NCBI GenBank assembly: GCA_016218825.1
Contig: JACRCV010000092.1
Location: 1-38,602, forward strand
Length of the DNA: 38,602 nucleotides
Direction of reading: 5' to 3'
Source: Deltaproteobacteria bacterium
GTDB lineage: Bacteria; Myxococcota; XYA12-FULL-58-9
Shown: positions 9,426 through 19,006 of the stretch, one piece after another
Layout: the number at the start of each line of letters is the position of its first letter
Numbering within the stretch: position 1 is the first letter of the stretch
Translations under genes and position numbers: made by a program
The notes under the pieces: model-generated
The model's database searches: none
Told to the model about the DNA's origin: nothing
The model's input: only the letters and a program-made list of their open reading frames with translations

Positions 9426-11249
9426 ATGAGACCAATCCTCGCGAGCTTCGGCGGGCTCGTGGCCGGCGCCACGCTCGGCGGCCTGGTCGTCGGCGCCGCC
9501 GAGGGCATGTTTCGGAACGCCGGCGCCCTGTACGCCGCCCTGCTCTACGGCACCCTGTGGGCGATCGCCGCGGCGCTCTTGGCGACCCTCCTGGCGCTGG
9601 CGCTCCGGCGCCCGGTCCAGAAGCTGCAGCTGCGCTGGGGCCTGATCCTGGCCCTGGCGCCGTCCGGCCTCGTGCTCGTCCGCTTCGTCGTGCTCAGAGA
9701 CGTGCTGCACGAGAGCCCGCACGCGCAGCCGGTGGCGGCGGCGGCCGGGCTCGCGGTCGCGGCGGCGGTGGTGGCGATGGTGCTCAAGGGCGCGCACGTC
9801 CTGGTGCGTCGCTTCGCCACCGAGGAGGTGCGCGGCGCCCGCCTCTACCTCCTGCCGGCGTTGGTCGTGGCGGCCTTCGCGCTCTTCGCCCAAGCGCCGG
9901 ACGACGAGGTGACCGAGGTCCTGCCGGTCGCCGAAGCGCACCGCGGCCGCGGCGTGATCCTCGTGGTCATCGACGCGCTGCGCGCCGATGCGCTGGGCGT
10001 CTACGGCGCGCCGCCGCATCGCGGCGCCGACGCTTCACCGAACATCGACGCGCTCGCACGGCGCGCGCTGGTGTTCACCAATACCAGCGCCCAGGCCTCG
10101 TGGACCAAGCCCGCGGTGGCGACGATCATGACCTCGCGCCACGCGAGCGGCCACAATACCATGAGCAAGCCCGCGGTGCTGCCGTCAAGCCTGCCGACCA
10201 TCGCCAGCCTGCTCGCCGAGAACGGCGCCAAGACCGCCGCCGTGGTCACCAACTACAACCTCGAGGCCGGCTACGGCTTCGACCGGGGCTTCTCGCGCTT
10301 CGACTACCTCGCCCCGGCCCGCTACCTCGGCGCCCCGGAGCGCGCCAACCGGCTGGCGGCCTACAACGTCTACCGCCTGCTGCGGGAGCGCTCCTTGCGC
10401 GACGCGCGCCAGCCGCGCTACTTCTACCGCTCCGCCCGCGCCGTCAACGCCCGCGCCCTCGACATCCTCGATCAGCTCGGCGACGGCGACTTCTTCCTCT
10501 ACCTGCACTACATGGAGCCGCACGACCCCTACTTCGACCGGGACGGCGCCTCGTTCGCCAAGGTCTCCGACCCGAGCCCGCCCGCCGCATGGGCGCCGCG
10601 GATGCACGCCGCCTACCGCGACGAGGTGCAGCGCGCCGACGCCGCCTTGGGCGAGCTCGTCCAGGCGCTCGACCGCCGCGGCCTCCAGGATCAGGTGACC
10701 CTGATCGTCACCGCCGACCACGGCGAGGAGTTCGCCGAGCACGGCGGCTTCTACCACGGCACGACGCTCTACGAAGAGCAGCTGGACATCCCGCTCGTCA
10801 TCGCCGGCCCCGGCGTCACACCGGGGACCGACGCCGCGCTGGCGCGTGGGTTGGATCTGGCGCCGACGATCCTCGGCCGCTTCGGCCACCGGGCGCCGCC
10901 GTCGTGGGAGGGGCGCGACCTGCTGACGGCGAGCGTGCCGCCCGAGGCGACCCTGGCCGAGGAAGATCACGAGGGCAACCGCCTGACCGCGGTCCGCACC
11001 CACCGCAAGAAGCTCATCCTCGCGAACCCCGACAACCCGCGCGGCCTGAAACCCACCGAGCTCTATGACCTCGAGAACGACCCGCGGGAGGCCAAGCCGA
11101 TCGCCGACGACCCGAGCGCCGTCAAGGCGCTCGGCGCCCTCGCGGACCAACTGCGGGCGGCGTCCAAGCAGGGCGGCGCCAGCGCCCAAGAGCGCCGCCT
11201 CGACGCCGCGGCCGAGGCCGAGCTGCGCGCCCTGGGATACGTGCACTGA
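9426..11249 (+). CDS. membrane-anchored sulfatase-like hydrolase/transferase
   Basis: The 607-residue product has an N-terminal membrane part with about four or five hydrophobic helices (to about residue 157), then an alkaline-phosphatase-superfamily sulfatase domain facing the periplasm. Metal and active-site marks are D183 in VVIDALRAD, T227 in SWTKPAVATIMTSR, and the TADHGEEFAEHGG segment. The nucleophile position is Thr rather than the Cys or Ser converted to formylglycine in true sulfatases. This is more like phosphoethanolamine or phosphoglycerol transferases, so the enzyme may cleave or transfer a phospho-group. It ends LRALGYVH. The next gene starts eight bases after its stop and encodes another superfamily member, so the two probably form one transcript. 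Confidence 0.85.
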   Translation: MRPILASFGGLVAGATLGGLVVGAAEGMFRNAGALYAALLYGTLWAIAAALLATLLALALRRPVQKLQLRWGLILALAPSGLVLVRFVVLRDVLHESPHAQPVAAAAGLAVAAAVVAMVLKGAHVLVRRFATEEVRGARLYLLPALVVAAFALFAQAPDDEVTEVLPVAEAHRGRGVILVVIDALRADALGVYGAPPHRGADASPNIDALARRALVFTNTSAQASWTKPAVATIMTSRHASGHNTMSKPAVLPSSLPTIASLLAENGAKTAAVVTNYNLEAGYGFDRGFSRFDYLAPARYLGAPERANRLAAYNVYRLLRERSLRDARQPRYFYRSARAVNARALDILDQLGDGDFFLYLHYMEPHDPYFDRDGASFAKVSDPSPPAAWAPRMHAAYRDEVQRADAALGELVQALDRRGLQDQVTLIVTADHGEEFAEHGGFYHGTTLYEEQLDIPLVIAGPGVTPGTDAALARGLDLAPTILGRFGHRAPPSWEGRDLLTASVPPEATLAEEDHEGNRLTAVRTHRKKLILANPDNPRGLKPTELYDLENDPREAKPIADDPSAVKALGALADQLRAASKQGGASAQERRLDAAAEAELRALGYVH

Positions 11250-11257
11250 GAGCCAAG

Positions 11258-12925
11258 GTGGGCGCGCGACTCCTGATCCTGGGCCTGGACGGCGCCACCT
11301 TCGACGTCCTCGATCCGCTGTTCGCCGTGGGCGCCCTGCCCGCCCTCGCCGCGCTCGCCCAGAGAGGCTGGCGCACCGAGCTCCACTCGACCCTGCCGGT
11401 CGCGACCCTACCCGCCTGGACCTCCTTTCTGACCGGCACCGCGCCGGCGGTGCACGGTGTCACCGATTTGCTGCTCCGCGTCCCCGGCAGCTACGGGCTG
11501 CGCCCCGCGACCGCCGCCGACCGCGGCGCCGAGACCTTTCTCTGGCGCCTCGCGCGCCGCGGCCTCGCGGTCGCGGCGCTCGGCGTGCCGGGGACCTACC
11601 CGCCCGAGAGCTATGCCGACGGCATCTGCGTCCCGGGCTTCGACGCTCCCGGCGCCGCCCGGGTTCGCGCCGACGGCATTTGGCCGCCGGCGCTCGCCGG
11701 CCGCCTGGAAAGCCTCGGCGGTTGGCGCTACGCGACGTTCAACGAGCACGGGCCGGCGTCGGAACGCCTGCGGCGCGCCGCCCCGGCGCTCATCGAAGAC
11801 CTCGAGCGCAAGGAGCGGGTGATCCTCGACCTCTACCGCAGCCGCGCCTGGGACCTGTTCTTCGTCCACCTGCAGGCCGCCGACACCGCCCAACACCACC
11901 TCTGGCACACCCACGATCGGGCCTCGCCGCGCGCCGCCCACCCGGAGCTCGCGAGCGCGGTCGCCGACGTCTGGCGCCGCATCGACGCCGTGGTCGCCCG
12001 CCTGCTCCGGGAGACGGATCCCGACGCCCGGATCCTGGCCGTCAGCGACCATGGCATGGGGGGCGCCGCCGACGTCGCGGTGCACCTGAACCGCTTCCTG
12101 GCGCACGAAGGCCTGCTCCGCTTTGCCGCCGCCGCCGCGCCCCGAGCCGCCGGCGCCGCGTTGCGCGCCGGGCTCGCCCGCCTGCCCAAGGAGGTCGTCG
12201 GCGCCGTGGTCCAGCGCCTGCCGCGGGCCCTGTTGGCGCCGCTGTTCTCGCTCAGCCACCACGCCGCGATCGACTTCGGCGGCACCCTGGCGTTCTCCGA
12301 CGAGCTCGACTACGCCCCGTCGGTCTGGCTCAACCTCGCCGGCCACTTCCCGAGCGGCACGGTCGACGAGCGTCAGGCCGAGCCGATCCTGCGCCGCGTC
12401 GAGGCCGGGCTCTCGGCGCTTCGCGATCCGGCGACCGGCCGGCAGCTCATCGCGCGCGTCCATCGACGCGCCGACCTGCCCGCCGGCCCCTACCGCTTCC
12501 GCGCCCCCGACTTGACCATCGAGCCCGCGTGGGAGAGCGGCTATCGCGCCTCGTTCCTCGCGAGCCGTGGCCCGGGCCCGGCGGTGCGGGTGCTCGACGC
12601 ACGCGAGCACGACGCCGCCAAGGGCGCCGGACTCCCCGGGGTCCACAAGCGCGAAGGGATCTTCATCGCCGCCGGCAAGGGCCTGAGCCCGCTCGAGCTG
12701 CCGCCGCTCCAGATCCACCAGGCCGGCGCCCTGGTGTTCCCGCTCCTCGACCAGCCGATCCCGCAGGCGCTGAAAGCGGCCCTGCCGGGCTTCACCGGCG
12801 AGCTGCTGCCTGTGGAGACCGAAGCAACCCCCGCCGCGGCGCCCGAGGCAGCACTCGAGCACCCGGCCGCCGCCGACCAGCGACAGACCCTCGAACAGCT
12901 GCGGGCGCTAGGCTACCTGGACTAG
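11258..12925 (+). CDS. type I phosphodiesterase/alkaline phosphatase family protein
   Basis: The 555-residue product belongs to the alkaline phosphatase superfamily, in the nucleotide pyrophosphatase/phosphodiesterase branch. Marks are D11 in LILGLDGATFD, nucleophile T55 in LPAWTSFLTG, DTAQHHLW, and the metal-binding SDHGMG. A cytoplasmic location is suggested by the lack of a signal peptide, although related proteins can be membrane-associated. The GTG start at 11258 follows the sulfatase-like gene by eight bases. The C-terminus LRALGYLD matches the ends of the neighbouring sulfatase-like proteins. The substrate is unknown. A REP-like element and an AT-rich hairpin follow the stop. Confidence 0.85.
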   Translation: MGARLLILGLDGATFDVLDPLFAVGALPALAALAQRGWRTELHSTLPVATLPAWTSFLTGTAPAVHGVTDLLLRVPGSYGLRPATAADRGAETFLWRLARRGLAVAALGVPGTYPPESYADGICVPGFDAPGAARVRADGIWPPALAGRLESLGGWRYATFNEHGPASERLRRAAPALIEDLERKERVILDLYRSRAWDLFFVHLQAADTAQHHLWHTHDRASPRAAHPELASAVADVWRRIDAVVARLLRETDPDARILAVSDHGMGGAADVAVHLNRFLAHEGLLRFAAAAAPRAAGAALRAGLARLPKEVVGAVVQRLPRALLAPLFSLSHHAAIDFGGTLAFSDELDYAPSVWLNLAGHFPSGTVDERQAEPILRRVEAGLSALRDPATGRQLIARVHRRADLPAGPYRFRAPDLTIEPAWESGYRASFLASRGPGPAVRVLDAREHDAAKGAGLPGVHKREGIFIAAGKGLSPLELPPLQIHQAGALVFPLLDQPIPQALKAALPGFTGELLPVETEATPAAAPEAALEHPAAADQRQTLEQLRALGYLD

Positions 12926-12960
12926 ACCGGTTTTGCAGTGAGCTGATCGAAGCGATCCGT

Positions 12961-13042
12961 GCCCCCGCCCCACTCGGGGGCGGGGGACGGGGGGTGGGGG
13001 TGGGGAGCGCGGCCGCAGCGGCCGCGCGGGAATCAAAGGAAG
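12961..13042 (+). repeat. REP-like element copy R2 (full length)
   Basis: It begins with a GC hairpin (CCCCCGCCC pairing with GGGCGGGGG), then consecutive G-runs separated by one or two bases. GGAG (13004-13007) follows, overlapping a perfect palindrome with arms 13007-13016 and 13018-13027, and then the tail GGGAATCAAAGGAAG. It differs from the copy at 18894-18975 at only three of 82 positions. It lies downstream of the phosphodiesterase gene in a convergent intergenic region. Confidence 0.85.
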
Positions 13043-13054
13043 CCGAGAGAACTC

Positions 13055-13097
13055 GAGTATACTCTACTTAAACTATTACTTTAAGGATATTATACTC
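13055..13097. other. nested AT-rich stem-loop in the 12926-13174 gap
   Basis: GAGTATA (13055-13061) pairs perfectly with TATACTC (13091-13097). Inside, CTTAAA (13067-13072) pairs with TTTAAG (13080-13085) around CTATTAC, with 5/5-base internal loops between the two stems. The surrounding 13050-13175 is strikingly AT-rich for this genome. The 249-base gap between convergent genes holds this hairpin and repeat copy R2, and no gene was found in it. Confidence 0.6.
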
Positions 13098-13174
13098 AAC
13101 ATCTAATGAATCACGAGAACTGAAGCGCGCGGCATACCGACACACCGAACACACGTAAAACCACTAAGAATATT

Positions 13175-14641
13175 CTACTGGATATAACCGAGGGCTTTCA
13201 GGTCCTGGCGGGTCTCGGGATCGAGGTTGAGATTGTCGACCACGTGCGGCAAGCCGCCGGCGGCCTCGACCTGGCGGTGGCGCTTGACGATGCCGAGGAG
13301 GTGCCACCACCGCGGACCGGGGGCGCCGGTCGTCTTGTCGAAGAGGTTGTGGCGCTCGAAGGGATCGGCGGCGATGTCGAACATCTGCACCTGCTCCTCG
13401 GTGAACGACACCGACGGCAGCAACCGCTGCTTGCCGACCGTGGCCATGAACTGGTCGTGGTCGGTCGGATCGCCGTAGATCACCTTGCTGCGGTAGGTGC
13501 GGATCATCCGCCGGCTGATGCCGAAGTTGTGGAACTCGCAGGTCACGAAGCGGTTGTCGATGTCGACCCTCTCCGGCCGCGCCAGGTGGCGAAAGATGTC
13601 GACCCCCGGCAGGTAGTCGGGCACCGGCGCTCCGAAGGCCCGAATGATGGTCGGCATCAGGTCGACGGTCTGGAACAGGTAGTGGTTGTAGCTGCCGCGC
13701 TCGCTCATCAGCGGCGCCTTGATGATGAGCGGCGCCCGCACGATCTCCTCGAAGAGGTGGTGGGCGTGCAGGAAGACGCCGTGCTCGCCGAACGCCTCGC
13801 CGTGGTCGGCGGTGATCATCAGGGTGGCCTTGTCGTAGATCCCGAGCGTCTTGAGCTCGTCGAGGAAGCGCCCGACCGCGGTGTCGGTGTAGTTGAGGGC
13901 GCCGTCGTAGGTCGCCTGCAGCCGCTCGATCTCGGCGGCGCTCGGCCGGCCCACCTCCCAGTGCGGCGAGCGGATCAGCTTGACGCTCGGATCGCGTACG
14001 TACATGTCCTCGTAGGGCGCGGGCGCGTGGTAGGGGTCGTGGGGGTCGACGAAGAACAGCATGAGGAAGAAGCGCTCGGCGGCGTGCGCGCGAACGAAGG
14101 GCACCGCGAGCTCGACCACCTGGTCGGCCGACGGCAGACCGCGCCAGTGCTTGACGGTGTCGGCGTAGAACGAGAAGCCGCGGCTCAAGCCGAACGCCGA
14201 TCCGGCGTTGCCGTTGCCGACCACGGCGCCGGTCTTGACGCCGTTCTGCTCCAGGATCTCGCCCAGAGTCACGTACTGCTCGGCGAGGCGGTCCTGGTCG
14301 CGCTCGACCGCGTGCCGCGCCGGCAACAACCCGGTGAGCAAGCTCGCGGTGCTCGGCCGGGTCCAGTTGCCGTTGACGAAGTAGTTGGTGAGCAGCACCC
14401 CGTCGTCCGCCACCGCCTTCAGGCGCGGCGTGGTGTCGCGGCCGTAGCCGTACGGCGTCAGGTGGTCGGGGCGCATCGCGTCGACGACGATGAGGATGAC
14501 CGGCCCGCCCTCGGAGCTGATCTTCACCCGGGGAGTGGCGGGACGCGTCAGACCGGTGAAGTAGGCCTTGGAGAGATCCGGCGGCAGCCCCACGAGGGAC
14601 AGCAGCATGAGAGCGACAGGCGTCACGTGCGCTGATCTCAC
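13175..14641 (-). CDS. secreted sulfatase-like hydrolase
   Basis: The product (about 488 residues) has an N-terminal hydrophobic signal (VTPVALMLLSLVGL), then a sulfatase domain. Visible are D54 in LIVVDAMRPDH, T94 in NWTRPSTASLLTG, FFVDPHDPYHAP, and the metal-binding ITADHGEAFGEHG. As in the protein at 9426-11249, the formylglycine position is Thr, so sulfatase activity by the usual mechanism is not expected. The start is uncertain: GTG 14641 gives a signal peptide with a positive n-region, and GTG 14644 or 14626 are alternatives. The C-terminus is LKALGYIQ. It is convergent with the phosphodiesterase gene and divergent from 14740. The TAG stop lies beside the AT-rich stem-loop region. Confidence 0.85.
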   Translation of the reverse strand: MRSAHVTPVALMLLSLVGLPPDLSKAYFTGLTRPATPRVKISSEGGPVILIVVDAMRPDHLTPYGYGRDTTPRLKAVADDGVLLTNYFVNGNWTRPSTASLLTGLLPARHAVERDQDRLAEQYVTLGEILEQNGVKTGAVVGNGNAGSAFGLSRGFSFYADTVKHWRGLPSADQVVELAVPFVRAHAAERFFLMLFFVDPHDPYHAPAPYEDMYVRDPSVKLIRSPHWEVGRPSAAEIERLQATYDGALNYTDTAVGRFLDELKTLGIYDKATLMITADHGEAFGEHGVFLHAHHLFEEIVRAPLIIKAPLMSERGSYNHYLFQTVDLMPTIIRAFGAPVPDYLPGVDIFRHLARPERVDIDNRFVTCEFHNFGISRRMIRTYRSKVIYGDPTDHDQFMATVGKQRLLPSVSFTEEQVQMFDIAADPFERHNLFDKTTGAPGPRWWHLLGIVKRHRQVEAAGGLPHVVDNLNLDPETRQDLKALGYIQ

Positions 14642-14705
14642 CACAAGGCGCCCGCCTGTCAACTTTCTTTCCGGCGGCGCAAGCGAGACGCGCCGCTGCA
14701 GCAAA

Positions 14706-14739: not shown

Positions 14740-17337
14740 ATGGCTATCCGCACGACGGCCTTGACCGGCCTGGTCCTCGCGCTCACCGCCCCGGTGCACG
14801 CCGAATCGTTCGCCACCGACGGCAACACCCGCCAAGGTCGCCTGCGCTACGTGATGACCGGCGCGTCGATGGTCGACAACCAGGGGCTGCAGAACGGCGT
14901 CAACTGCCTGCGGCCGTCGGCGTCGGCCACCATCCGGCCGACCGACCTGTCGCCGCGGGCGCGGTTGGTGGCCGCGACCCTCTACGTCGCCGGGTCGCTG
15001 ATCGCCGACGACGGCCCGGACTACGCCAACCCGGCCGTCAACCTGTTCGTCACCCCGGGGCTGCGGGCCGACGATCCGAGCCAGGTCGGGGCGGTGGAGG
15101 ACGCGGCGCGCGCCGCCGCCGACACCTCGGTCGAGCTGCTGTTGCCGGGGGCGCCGCTGCCGGTGACGGTGTCGGCACCGGCCGGGAGCTCCTACGTCTC
15201 GGTGTACTACAAGCCCTCCGGCTCCGAAGCCGGCAACGTCGGCTTCTTCGTCACCCCGATCGACATCACCCAGGCGCTGCAGAACGACGGCCGCGGCGTG
15301 CTCGTCGGCGACTACACCGTGTCCGGCCTGCTCGCCGACGTCTGCAACGGCCCGGAGGCGGTCTGCAACCAGCCGCCGAGTCCGCCGACCTGCAGCACCC
15401 TTGCCGGCGCCGCCACCCACACCAACGGCGCGGCGTCGTTCGCGCTCCTCCTGATCGTCGAAGATCCGGAGCTGCCGCTGCACGCGGTCTCGGTGTTCGA
15501 GGGCCTGATCTCGCTCGCCGGCCGCACCGTCGAGCGACGCCTGACGCTGCGCAGCCCGATCTCCAGCCCGGCGGTGGGCTCGCTGACGATGTATGGCCTC
15601 GAGGGTGACCTCCTGATCCCCGACGCGGTCGTCAACGTCGGCCCCTGTCACGCCGAGGAGTACGTCGAAGCCGACGGCGACCTCGACCCGAGCCAGAACG
15701 GCCGCTGCCTGGTGGACGACGACAACCCGGTCGGCAACATCTTCAACTCCACGATCAACATGGTGCCGGCGGCGTCACCGCCGTCCTGCAGCCTCGCCGG
15801 CCGGCCGCAGAACTGCTGCCTGGGCGACGGTCTCTGCAGCGTCACCGGGGTCGACATCGACCGCTTCGACATCTCCTCGGCCCTGGCGCCCGGCGCGAGC
15901 ACGGTGCGGGTCAGCGTCGGCAGCGGCACCGACCGGGTGGCGCTGGCGGTGATCGTGCTCGGCGTCGACGTCTTCGAGCCGGTGCTCGACGTCGATTCGC
16001 AGATCCGGGTGTTCGAAGGGCAGGACGGCGCGCTGCTGCCGGTCGAAGGCGGCGGCGTGCACCTCGGCAGCACCCTGACCTACTCGATCGCGGTCAGCAA
16101 CACCGGCAACGTCGCGGCGCACGGCGTCAACGTCTACGTCGCGGCGCCGCCCAACACCTCGGGTCTCGGCGTCGTCGACTCGCCGCCCGGCTCGGTCGTC
16201 ATCCTCAGCCCCACCGGCGGCGACGCCGGCACCGGCGCGGTCACCGTCAGCGGCTTCGACGTGCCGGCGGGCGAGATCAGCGAGGTCCGGCTGCAGCTCG
16301 GGGTCCCCTGCCCTCCCAACAGCGCTCGCAGCCTGGCGCTCACCGCCGAGCTCAGCTGCACCGACCTCCCGGCGTTCATCGTCGCCGCGCCGGTGATCGA
16401 GGCCGGCGGTCCCGGCATCCTGTCGTGCCACGGCATCGACCCCGACGGCCCGTTCGCGGTGCAGCCCGAAAAGCGGTCGCTGCGCGGCGGTGGCGCCAAC
16501 TGCAGCGTGTCCGGCGCCCCGTGGCTCGGCCTGGTGGCGATGAGCTGCGGGCTGCTCTTGATGGCCCGAGGGCGAAGGCGCCGCGGCGTGATGTGGGCGC
16601 TCCTCGTCAGCCAGCTCTTTGCCGCCGGCTGCGGCGCGCGCCACGCCGCCGCCGAAGGAGCGCCGCCGCCCGACGACCGAACCATCACCGATCTCGCCGG
16701 CCTGCCGGGCGAGGCGTGCGGCTCCGGTCTGATGGTGTACGTCGCCAGGAGCGACCACAGCCGCTACTGCATCGACCGCTTCGAGGCCGAGGTGGGCAGC
16801 GGCAGCCTCGGCGACGCGATGCAGGGCCAAGACGACACCGACACCAACACCAACGGCAGCACCACCGCCGCCGCGACCGTCGGCCTCGGCGTCACCCCGG
16901 CTGCGCAGGTCAGCTGGTACCAGGCGAAGGCGTTGTGCGAGAACGCCGGCAAGCACCTGTGCAGCCGCGCCGACTGGGAGCTGGCCTGCCGCGGGCCGTT
17001 GGCCCTGATCTACCCCTACGGCGACACCATCGACGACCACGCCTGCAACGGCTTCTTCAACTACCCGGCCATGAAGCCCGCGATGACCGGCGCCCTCGAT
17101 ACCTGCGGCAGCGCCGTCGGCGCCTACGACATGTCCGGCAACGTCGAGGAGTGGGTCGCGGACGCGGTGCCCCGGATCCCGGGCACGACCGCGCTCTTGG
17201 ACCGCGCCATCCGCGGCGGCAGCTTCAAGTCCAACTCCCAGGCCCTGGCCTGCGTCGGCGACGAGTTCCACGCCCCGCCTGCCGAGACCGACATCGACCG
17301 CGGCTTCCGCTGCTGCAGCGACGGCCCGGTCCCTTAG
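14740..17337 (+). CDS. secreted DUF11-like protein fused in frame to an FGE-like lipoprotein
   Basis: This 865-codon frame looks like two proteins in one. Residues 1-616 start with a signal peptide (TTALTGLVLALTAPVHAES), contain cysteine-bearing beta-rich segments, a DUF11-like domain (STLTYSIAVSNTGNVAAHG), and end in a Cys-hydrophobic-RGRRRR tail like a MYXO-CTERM signal. Codon 618 (ATG 16591) then begins MWALLVSQLFAAGCG, a typical lipoprotein signal with Cys631. A formylglycine-generating-enzyme-type domain follows (YCIDRFEAEV, QAKALCENAGKHLCSRADWE, YDMSGNVEEWV, IRGGSF, RGFRCC). A TGA overlaps ATG 16591 in the +1 frame. The ancestral state may therefore have been two genes joined by TGATG, and one extra base now fuses them. 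Internal initiation at 16591 is possible. Confidence 0.75.
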   Translation: MAIRTTALTGLVLALTAPVHAESFATDGNTRQGRLRYVMTGASMVDNQGLQNGVNCLRPSASATIRPTDLSPRARLVAATLYVAGSLIADDGPDYANPAVNLFVTPGLRADDPSQVGAVEDAARAAADTSVELLLPGAPLPVTVSAPAGSSYVSVYYKPSGSEAGNVGFFVTPIDITQALQNDGRGVLVGDYTVSGLLADVCNGPEAVCNQPPSPPTCSTLAGAATHTNGAASFALLLIVEDPELPLHAVSVFEGLISLAGRTVERRLTLRSPISSPAVGSLTMYGLEGDLLIPDAVVNVGPCHAEEYVEADGDLDPSQNGRCLVDDDNPVGNIFNSTINMVPAASPPSCSLAGRPQNCCLGDGLCSVTGVDIDRFDISSALAPGASTVRVSVGSGTDRVALAVIVLGVDVFEPVLDVDSQIRVFEGQDGALLPVEGGGVHLGSTLTYSIAVSNTGNVAAHGVNVYVAAPPNTSGLGVVDSPPGSVVILSPTGGDAGTGAVTVSGFDVPAGEISEVRLQLGVPCPPNSARSLALTAELSCTDLPAFIVAAPVIEAGGPGILSCHGIDPDGPFAVQPEKRSLRGGGANCSVSGAPWLGLVAMSCGLLLMARGRRRRGVMWALLVSQLFAAGCGARHAAAEGAPPPDDRTITDLAGLPGEACGSGLMVYVARSDHSRYCIDRFEAEVGSGSLGDAMQGQDDTDTNTNGSTTAAATVGLGVTPAAQVSWYQAKALCENAGKHLCSRADWELACRGPLALIYPYGDTIDDHACNGFFNYPAMKPAMTGALDTCGSAVGAYDMSGNVEEWVADAVPRIPGTTALLDRAIRGGSFKSNSQALACVGDEFHAPPAETDIDRGFRCCSDGPVP

Positions 17338-17347
17338 GGCGCTCTGC

Positions 17348-17387
17348 CTTTCCTTTGATTCCCGCGCGACGGCCTGGCTCAGCGCGG
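17348..17387 (-). repeat. REP-like element copy R3 (degenerate, tail conserved)
   Basis: On the minus strand CCGCGC (17387-17382) pairs with GCGCGG (17367-17362) over a 14-base loop. It is followed by GGGAATCAAAGGAAAG, identical to the tail of copy R1. The G-tract and GGAG foot are missing. The upstream arm overlaps the last codons of the amidohydrolase gene, so the hairpin straddles its stop codon. It lies between two convergent genes only 41 bases apart. Confidence 0.55.
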
Positions 17388-18512
17388 CCGGTCGAGATGG
17401 AGCAGGCGGCGGGCGTTGGTGCGATAGATCTTGTCGAGCGTCGGTCGCGACAGCCCGATGGCGTCGATGGTCCAGCGGCCCTGGATCGGCGTCAGGTGCG
17501 CCATCTTCCGATCCCGGGTCTCGAAGTAGCGCCAGTGCAGGTCGTAGTAGCGCCGCGCGTCCGCGATCGTCGGGTGATCGTCGGGGCCGCCGGCGCCGAG
17601 CACCACGTCGTGCCGGCCCACCTCCAGGTCGGTGCCGAGCACGATCCGATCCTGAAACTCCTCGAAGAACGCGCGGGCGCGCTCGGGATCCCGGCGTCCG
17701 ATCTCGGGGAGGCGCGCCGCGACGTCGACGTAGAGGTTCGAGAGCGCCCGCATCGAGGCTGCGACCGCGTCCAGGCTCTCGGGATAGCCGCCGACGTGGA
17801 CGCCGACGAACGTCGTCGCCGGGTGACGCGCCACCAGCCGATCGCGAGCCGCGAGCAGCTCGAGGAGCGACGGGAAGTCGGCGCCGAAGAAGCTCCAGCT
17901 CGGATGCGCCGCGAGCTCCTCGTAGCGCTCGTTGTCGGCCGTCGGCTTCTCGAAGAACGCCAACGGGTCGCCGGTGTGGATGGCGACCGGGACCCCGAGC
18001 TCGCCGGCGGCGCGCCACAGAGGATCGAGGCGCGGGTCGTCCACCTTCAGCAGGCTCCGGTCGGCGGTGCGCACCCCCAACCCGAGGCTCTTGAACACCT
18101 TCAAGCCGCGCGCCCCGGCCGCCACCGCCTGCCGCAGGTTGAGCGCGGCGAGGGCGCCGAACTCCGGGTCGTCGACCAGGCTCCAGTCGACCCCGGAGAA
18201 CACCAGAAGCTTGAGACCCGGGTGGGTGGCCTCGAAGCGCGCCGCTTCCTTCAGATGCGCGTCGAGCACCGGCCCGGCCGGCCGCCCCACCAGGTTCACC
18301 GCGACGTCGACGCCGGCGGCCGCGAAGATCTCCGCGGCCCGCTCGGCGCCGCCATAGCCGATGTGGGTGTGGAAATCGACCGCGTGGCGCGACTCGCCTT
18401 GCGCATACGGCGGCTGTGGCCGACAGCCGGCGAGCGGCCCGGCGCCGAGCACCGTCAGGCCGATGGTTACCTGAACGAGGACGACACCGGGCGCCCGCCG
18501 CCGGCGCGGCAT
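17379..18512 (-). CDS. amidohydrolase-family lipoprotein
   Basis: The 377-residue product is a metal-dependent hydrolase of the amidohydrolase_2 type, anchored as a lipoprotein. The signal ends in the lipobox LAGC (lipidated C30). Metal ligands are suggested by VDFHTHIG (H48, H50), VAIHTGD, VGVHVGGYPES and LGTDLEVG. The start at ATG 18512 was chosen because it begins directly before the arginine-rich n-region MPRRRR; upstream in-frame codons are the antisense of the HMA gene in another frame. It starts 23 bases after the HMA-domain gene and is probably in its operon. The substrate is unknown. Repeat copy R3 overlaps its 3' end. Confidence 0.85.
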   Translation of the reverse strand: MPRRRRAPGVVLVQVTIGLTVLGAGPLAGCRPQPPYAQGESRHAVDFHTHIGYGGAERAAEIFAAAGVDVAVNLVGRPAGPVLDAHLKEAARFEATHPGLKLLVFSGVDWSLVDDPEFGALAALNLRQAVAAGARGLKVFKSLGLGVRTADRSLLKVDDPRLDPLWRAAGELGVPVAIHTGDPLAFFEKPTADNERYEELAAHPSWSFFGADFPSLLELLAARDRLVARHPATTFVGVHVGGYPESLDAVAASMRALSNLYVDVAARLPEIGRRDPERARAFFEEFQDRIVLGTDLEVGRHDVVLGAGGPDDHPTIADARRYYDLHWRYFETRDRKMAHLTPIQGRWTIDAIGLSRPTLDKIYRTNARRLLHLDRPR

Positions 18513-18535
18513 GACCAGCGACCCCGCCCGCCTCG

Positions 18536-19006
18536 TCACTTGGCTTCCGGGGCCGGGGTGAGCGGCTCGACCGCCGCCAACGTCGGCTTGTACCCGGCCT
18601 TGGTGATCGCGAGGGCGAGCTCCTCGGGCTTCACCCGCGCCGGATCGTAGCGGACCACCGCCTGCTTGTCGGCGAGCGACACCCGCGCCTCGAGGACGCC
18701 GTCCAAGAGCTTCAACGCCTCGGTGACCGTGCCGGCGCAGCCGTCGCAGTGCATCCCGGCGACCGCGATGGTGATCGAGCGCGTCGGGTCTTGCGGCACC
18801 GGCGGGGGTACCGGCTTGTCGGCGCACGCCGCAGCGAGCGCGAGCCCGAGCACCACGGCAATGCCCAGCCGCGGTCGCGCGGCGGCAACGTCGGCCCCCG
18901 CCCCACCCGGGGGCGGGGGACGGGGGGTGGGGGTGGGGAGCGCGGCCGCGGCGGCCGCGCGGGAATCAAAGGCAGAGGAGAGCAGCGTGGATGAGGATCG
19001 GATCAT
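18536..19006 (-). CDS. HMA-domain (heavy-metal-associated) lipoprotein; start uncertain
   Basis: The C-terminal half (ITIAVAGMHCDGCAGTVTEA and onward) is a complete heavy-metal-associated domain with the GMHCDGC metal-binding motif, as in copper chaperones and MerP. Before it lies a lipoprotein-type signal (GIAVVLGLALAAACADKP). The start is unclear. ATG 19006 has a GAGGA site eight bases upstream and follows the hemN stop by 19 bases, but the translation then runs through repeat copy R4 (18894-18975) before the signal sequence. GTG 18856 starts right at the signal but has no ribosome-binding site and no positive n-region. The repeat may have entered the gene's 5' part. A role in periplasmic metal handling is inferred. 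Confidence 0.7.
   Translation of the reverse strand: MIRSSSTLLSSAFDSRAAAAAALPTPTPRPPPPGGAGADVAAARPRLGIAVVLGLALAAACADKPVPPPVPQDPTRSITIAVAGMHCDGCAGTVTEALKLLDGVLEARVSLADKQAVVRYDPARVKPEELALAITKAGYKPTLAAVEPLTPAPEAK
18894..18975 (+). repeat. REP-like element copy R4 (full length), within the 5' part of a gene
   Basis: It differs from copy R2 at three of 82 positions. It has the 5' GC hairpin, G-runs, GGAG (18937-18940), palindrome arms 18940-18949 and 18951-18960 around G, and the tail GGGAATCAAAGGCAG. It lies between the likely ribosome-binding site and the lipoprotein signal of the minus-strand HMA gene, opposite to the direction of transcription. Confidence 0.85.

Follow-up and report, generated by a model that had tools for sequence, protein, structure and literature searches.

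In-frame fusion of two predicted exported proteins through a MYXO-CTERM-like tail and an internal lipoprotein signal in Myxococcota

A frame in the window (the whole stretch of 38,602 nucleotides analysed here, contig JACRCV010000092.1 of assembly GCA_016218825.1, from a Deltaproteobacteria bacterium assigned to the Myxococcota) truly joins, in frame, what the sequence predicts to be two exported proteins, and this fusion has been kept in evolution. The open frame is conserved with both its hydrophobic segments and both its cysteines, and the same arrangement recurs in unrelated genes. A preliminary description of this DNA had noticed a Cys-hydrophobic-RGRRRR tail followed in frame by a lipoprotein signal ending in AAGC and by an FGE-like domain. 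This was confirmed: no stop codon follows the Arg run, so that the tail is internal, and the second signal and the FGE-like domain continue in the same frame. The features of the frame are listed below with their positions in the window.

14740..17337, plus strand: whole frame with both halves, a single open frame of 865 aa.
14740..14802, plus strand: N-terminal signal peptide (MAIRTTALTGLVLALTAPVHA), read by eye from the sequence.
16057..16281, plus strand: DUF11/DUF7507-like Ig-type domain, residues 440-514, a weak match.
16501..16503, plus strand: Cys588 of the MYXO-CTERM-like tail, after LRGGGAN, invariant in 7/7 N-halves.
16516..16566, plus strand: first hydrophobic helix, residues 593-609, hydropathy 1.81 over 17 residues.
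16567..16584, plus strand: Arg run RGRRRR, tail end and basic start of the internal signal, from sequence and alignment.
16588..16629, plus strand: second hydrophobic segment, residues 617-630, predicted from hydropathy as an internal lipoprotein signal.
16589..16593, plus strand: TGATG with the +1-frame TGA, not a functional junction here.
16591-16593, plus strand: ATG overlapped by that +1-frame TGA, from the sequence.
16621..16632, plus strand: lipobox A-A-G-C, matching a PROSITE-like pattern, with Cys631 as the predicted lipidated residue.
16876..17316, plus strand: FGE-sulfatase (sulfatase-modifying-factor-like) domain, residues 713-859, PF03781 match.

Across the junction, the residues run in the order ...LRGGGAN-C-SVSGAP-WLGLVAMSCGLLLMA-RGRRRRG-V-M-WALLVSQLFAAG-C-G.... 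The codon of Cys631 occupies 16630-16632, and 234 residues lie C-terminal to it. The first 587 residues appear as a secreted, beta-rich protein, in which the DUF11/DUF7507-like part was matched weakly (PF24346, E 6.4e-5, and PF01345, E 0.009, both under their gathering scores on the Ig-type domain). A profile search of the PDB with this N-half gave no match. The other half carries the PF03781 domain (61.6 bits on the window protein, above the gathering cut-off of 23.3), and its matches to solved FGEs had E values of 8e-8 or weaker. A low-confidence AlphaFold model (mean pLDDT 63.5) displayed helices at residues 594-610 and 616-627; a fold search with this model returned only low-TM multi-domain Ig-type matches and nothing beyond 'Ig-like'. 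Third-position GC of the frame lay at 0.88-0.97 before as well as after the junction.

The whole protein was used to search 58 relatives, and a profile built on the N-half to search 195 genomes of the phylum. Over both sets, the full N-half was found in seven genomes, the copy of one of them (G001) ending at the end of a contig. In six of these seven, the N-half runs into the FGE half in one frame: the window's own genome (G000), a genome of the same genus (G001), one of the same family (G002), and G007, G008 and G011. The fused genomes span four Myxococcota families, the first three belonging to one and the last three to three more. The G002 homologue covers residues 2-864 of the window protein as one tblastn segment. 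In G004, the two halves are two genes with an ATGA overlap. A first scan of genome contigs with P0001 gave no match. A contig scan revealed the pair as two genes separated by an 18-base gap in Tb.RUG.239 (RUG.239); it also matched RIFOXYA12_FULL_58_15, RA.bin128, bin.157, SJ496 and PRO2, which are five of the family genomes. Separate genes in relatives, which the preliminary description had suggested looking for, thus occur in two genomes (G004 and RUG.239), and one frame in six. In G004 and RUG.239, an ordinary lipoprotein signal opens the separate FGE half at its N-terminus, exactly where the fused frames carry the internal one.

The two cysteines are conserved in both arrangements. The tail Cys was invariant in 7/7 N-halves of alignment A2, and RUG.239 also has it. 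The lipobox Cys is preceded by Gly or Ala in 8/8 homologues, fused and split. The strict lipobox pattern was found in four of the six fused members, window included; of the other two, G002 has a His at position -2 and G011 a short hydrophobic stretch.

It had been suspected that a single miscalled base decided between two genes and one, i.e. that a sequencing or assembly error had added one base and joined two coupled genes. A TGATG does sit at the fitting place in the +1 frame, with its TGA over the ATG, and two relatives have separate genes, one of them by the ATGA overlap. However, the motif, although present, is not specific: shuffling gives an expectation of 40.8 copies for the window, which has 75, a second one lies nearby at 16559-16563, and the codon pair GTG ATG itself makes TGATG. 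It is therefore weak evidence and was dropped as a coupled-gene junction. Moreover, five other independent assemblies keep the frame with different junction DNA, and in three of these (G001, G008 and G011) the +1 frame reads through the whole junction uninterrupted, which means that a single base could not restore two genes there. Since the junction DNA differs in every relative and these +1 frames are stop-free, a one-base error in the window is no explanation. We ruled it out on the continuous frames of the relatives together with the stop-free +1 frames, and an error of this kind is hardly credible.

On a tree of the N-half, G008 and G011 are outside, followed by the split RUG.239 and then by a group formed by G007, the split G004 and the three nearest genomes. 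The fused or split state changed at least twice on this tree, which does not tell fusion from fission and in which G008, G011 and RUG.239 are long branches. Such changes, like the long linker of G007, might be expected if the fusion were a by-product without consequence, the stop having been lost by drift and the read-through tolerated. We find this distinctly unlikely, because the fused state is common to G008, G011 and the window's order across long branches, and an open frame would probably not persist over such distances without use. In G007 (L009:1417-4284), the linker is a basic, AT-rich-coded stretch of about 60 residues between the two hydrophobic segments, which gives the impression of translated, formerly intergenic DNA.

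The tail helix keeps a MYXO-CTERM protein in the inner membrane, with the Arg run inside, and the protease MrtX cuts the protein at the tail; this requires Cys residues and is not blocked by a FLAG tag placed C-terminal to the tail (PMC11980579). The window shares with this system a Cys (C588), a hydrophobic helix (593-609) and an Arg run (RGRRRR) in a predicted secreted Myxococcota surface protein, the traits of TIGR03901. In contrast to it, the window tail is internal and not C-terminal, and taken alone it scores 7.8 bits, under the curated TIGR03901 cut-off of 20. Therefore we term it MYXO-CTERM-like. The G004 tail alone reached 18.4 bits against the same cut-off. Distant relatives of the N-half end in ordinary MYXO-CTERM tails: among the eight scanned with TIGR03901 (L072-L075, L077-L079 and L084), three were above cut-off, two below, and three were without a listed match. 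G007 gave no MYXO-CTERM match at E <= 0.02.

The MrtX profile (NF040593) gave one main match in each of the six other genomes, at 110-128 of 180 bits and thus under the curated cut-off; the MrtX-like proteins of G001 and G002 are 62% identical to each other. In G000, a 96.5% complete draft, neither this profile nor the same-genus MrtX-like protein gave any match. As this genome has about a dozen MYXO-CTERM tails above cut-off, it is as likely that MrtX falls into a gap of the draft as that it is truly absent. LspA matches above cut-off were found in 7/7 genomes searched. Like bacterial lipoproteins cut by LspA, the predicted signal of the window has a basic start, a hydrophobic stretch and A-A-G-C, but it lies at residues 617-631 of a longer chain, whereas it is N-terminal in G004 and RUG.239.

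The arrangement recurs in other genes. We examined 172 TIGR03901 matches, all from 13 of the 15 genomes searched (G007 and G037 had none): 15/15 in G000 and 83/83 in G001, G002, G004, G008 and G011 at E <= 0.02, and 74/74 in G049, G147, G070, G014, G024, G047 and G010 at E <= 0.002. The window's own family is missing from these matches because its tail scores too low. Eight of the 172 have at least 100 aa beyond the tail, and all eight reach a hydrophobic, signal-like segment within about 30 residues. Assigned by motif and by eye, three of these segments are lipoprotein-like and five signal-peptidase-I-like.

G008, L192/L199: lipobox ending LLAGC; choice-of-anchor/HYDIN-like Ig.
G002, L180/L200: lipobox ending VVLGC; DUF6055.
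G070, L214/L273: lipobox ending IGAGC, on a single 6.7 Mb contig; MopE-type motifs, then TIG and CoaZ repeats.
G004, L168/L201: A-x-A ending; DUF11/Big repeats, MYXO-CTERM, SPI-like signal, OmpA.
G008, L143/L202: A-x-A ending; metalloprotease halves of the NCBIfam MXAN_2677/MXAN_2678 family (182 bits, cut-off 250).
G008, L122/L198: A-x-A ending; CARDB/He_PIG repeats either side of the junction.
G008, L196/L197: A-x-A ending; CARDB/He_PIG repeats either side of the junction.
G010, L255/L274: A-x-A ending; RHS.

Exported-type domains lie on both sides of these eight junctions. The G070 case, lying on its single long contig, is no product of a fragmentary assembly. Two shorter extensions, L112 (31 aa) and L282 (59 aa), showed no signal-like segment. 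In three of the eight, one half is a homologue of the other (L197, E 5e-91; L198, 7e-40; L202, 4e-9). A second MYXO-CTERM match was found near the end of the same frame in L197 and L198; at the end of L202, a Cys-helix-RRR stretch can be seen by eye, and the domain scan lists just the internal MYXO-CTERM of this protein. These three have the look of tandem duplications in which complete preproteins became fused. In L202 (L202:2712-4691, G008), the internal MYXO-CTERM and a signal-peptide-like segment lie between the two homologous metalloprotease halves; the name of the MXAN_2677/MXAN_2678 family suggests separate neighbouring genes in M. xanthus.

The presence of a hydrophobic segment directly after the Arg run exceeds chance. 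At all 14 junctions (six of the family and eight others), a 10-residue stretch with a mean hydropathy of at least 1.8 was found at most 30 residues from the Arg run (75 residues for G007, owing to its long linker), compared to 10.5% of random 30-residue stretches from the same proteins. With a stricter hydropathy of 2.0, the figures were 11 of 14 junctions and 6.3% of random stretches, the value for the window being 1.95.

These features point to a precursor which, in our view rather probably, enters the membrane as a hairpin and gives two anchored proteins through two cuts. The first half, a tail-anchored DUF11-type surface protein, would be exported behind the N-terminal signal peptide until the Cys-helix-Arg tail halts in the inner membrane, the Arg run remaining on the cytoplasmic side. 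A second half returned to the cytoplasm needs a new export to work outside, and a signal peptide would be a ready-made part for this. The shared Arg run would also be the basic start of the second hydrophobic segment, which would re-insert and carry the FGE-like half out. On the outer side, a myxosortase-type enzyme would cut at the tail Cys and the lipoprotein signal peptidase (LspA) at the lipobox Cys. The putative products are two separately lipid-anchored proteins in equal amounts, and a short hairpin peptide. One gene also gives two exported proteins in the case of the cytochrome b/c1 precursor FbcH of Bradyrhizobium, where an internal signal is cut by signal peptidase. FbcH differs from the window in that signal peptidase I is involved, the proteins are respiratory and there is no sorting tail.

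The two helices might also remain uncut as a membrane anchor, with the FGE-like domain staying covalently joined to the surface domain, a tether that the preliminary description had suggested. The topology requires the two helices alone, both of which appear in the low-confidence model, and such an anchor would impose the same hydrophobicity constraints on the sequence. Several findings count against cleavage: the 7.8-bit tail, the missing MrtX match in G000, G007 without MYXO-CTERM, and the strict lipobox missed by two of the six fused members (G002 and G011). However, all 8 homologues, fused and split, retain Cys631 with a small residue in front of it, while the surrounding linker varies, and 8/8 unrelated tails with a long extension lead to lipobox or A-x-A endings, i.e. 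to cleavable-looking signals. The tether is therefore possible but unlikely, and it ranks below cleavage into two proteins.

Besides the fusion, a nested translation start could yield the second half as a separate lipoprotein, for example from the ATG at 16561 or 16591. The ATG at 16561 in G000 would give MARGRRRRGVMWALLVSQLFAAGC and an ATG in G002 MGRRGGATLVLLLVLSHGC, both plausible lipoprotein signals; G001 and G011 have a TTG at a like place, with a poorer fit. Predicted ribosome binding is weak before the two candidate ATGs (-2.5 and +0.7 kcal/mol); before the separate gene of G004 it is -7.2 kcal/mol. Moreover, the nearest ATG, GTG or TTG is 49 codons before the lipobox Cys in G007 (none in 48) and 59 codons before it in G008 (none in 58). 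With no start codon within reach, the FGE half can hardly be made alone in these two genomes, and at least there the lipoprotein signal must work inside a chain. As a general explanation, the nested start was ruled out for G007 and G008 only, by the absent start codons; overall we hold it to be very unlikely. Among the unrelated genes, L199, L200 and L273 have no ATG, GTG or TTG 13-35 codons before the predicted cut.

An internal MYXO-CTERM is already published, and what appears to be new is its pairing with an internal export signal and its recurrence. Such internal motifs are described as rare, with MXAN_5598 of Myxococcus xanthus as the named example; it consists of an adhesin region, an internal MYXO-CTERM, and an outer membrane beta-barrel with an OmpA domain, and the authors proposed a gene fusion and processing of the N-part (PMC11980579). 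It is also listed as an OmpA-domain vesicle protein, in a passage without a word on cleavage (PMC4158809). MXAN_5598 and the window frame both have a surface domain, an internal MYXO-CTERM or MYXO-CTERM-like tail and a second exported domain in one frame. They differ in that the second half of MXAN_5598 is a beta-barrel with OmpA, and the passage on it mentions no internal signal peptide or lipobox (PMC11980579). L201 of G004 looks like the MXAN_5598 architecture. In the literature searched, only PMC11980579 speaks of an internal MYXO-CTERM, and no paper was found on its pairing with an internal export signal or on its recurrence.

Altogether, the sequences suggest that these bacteria join some of their surface proteins in pairs and cut them apart later. 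There is about an even chance that this reflects a general class in Myxococcota, of exported polyproteins in which whole preproteins are set head to tail through a back-to-back module (a MYXO-CTERM-type tail and an internal signal peptide around one Arg run). They would be cut by sorting protease and signal peptidase into separately anchored surface proteins, and the class would include the tandem duplicates with a MYXO-CTERM on each half. If true, each open frame would deliver two surface-anchored proteins in a fixed ratio and as neighbours in the membrane, and one short module would have three jobs, as anchor end, signal start and cleavage point. This would account for internal MYXO-CTERM motifs, the one in MXAN_5598 among them, and would offer a clean test of whether the sorting protease acts inside a chain. 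Annotators would also have to reckon with automatic pipelines reporting two proteins as a single one.

Adjoining the fused gene, the window holds three consecutive genes of the alkaline-phosphatase superfamily (9426-14704), two with PF00884 Sulfatase and one with PF01663 Phosphodiest. Their link to the FGE-like domain is doubtful, as the nucleophile sites, read by eye, are unlike C-x-P-x-R. Downstream of the fused gene, an Amidohydro_2 gene (PF04909) lies at 17379-18827 on the minus strand, and G001 has a frame of similar appearance in the same position (L007:301-1398).
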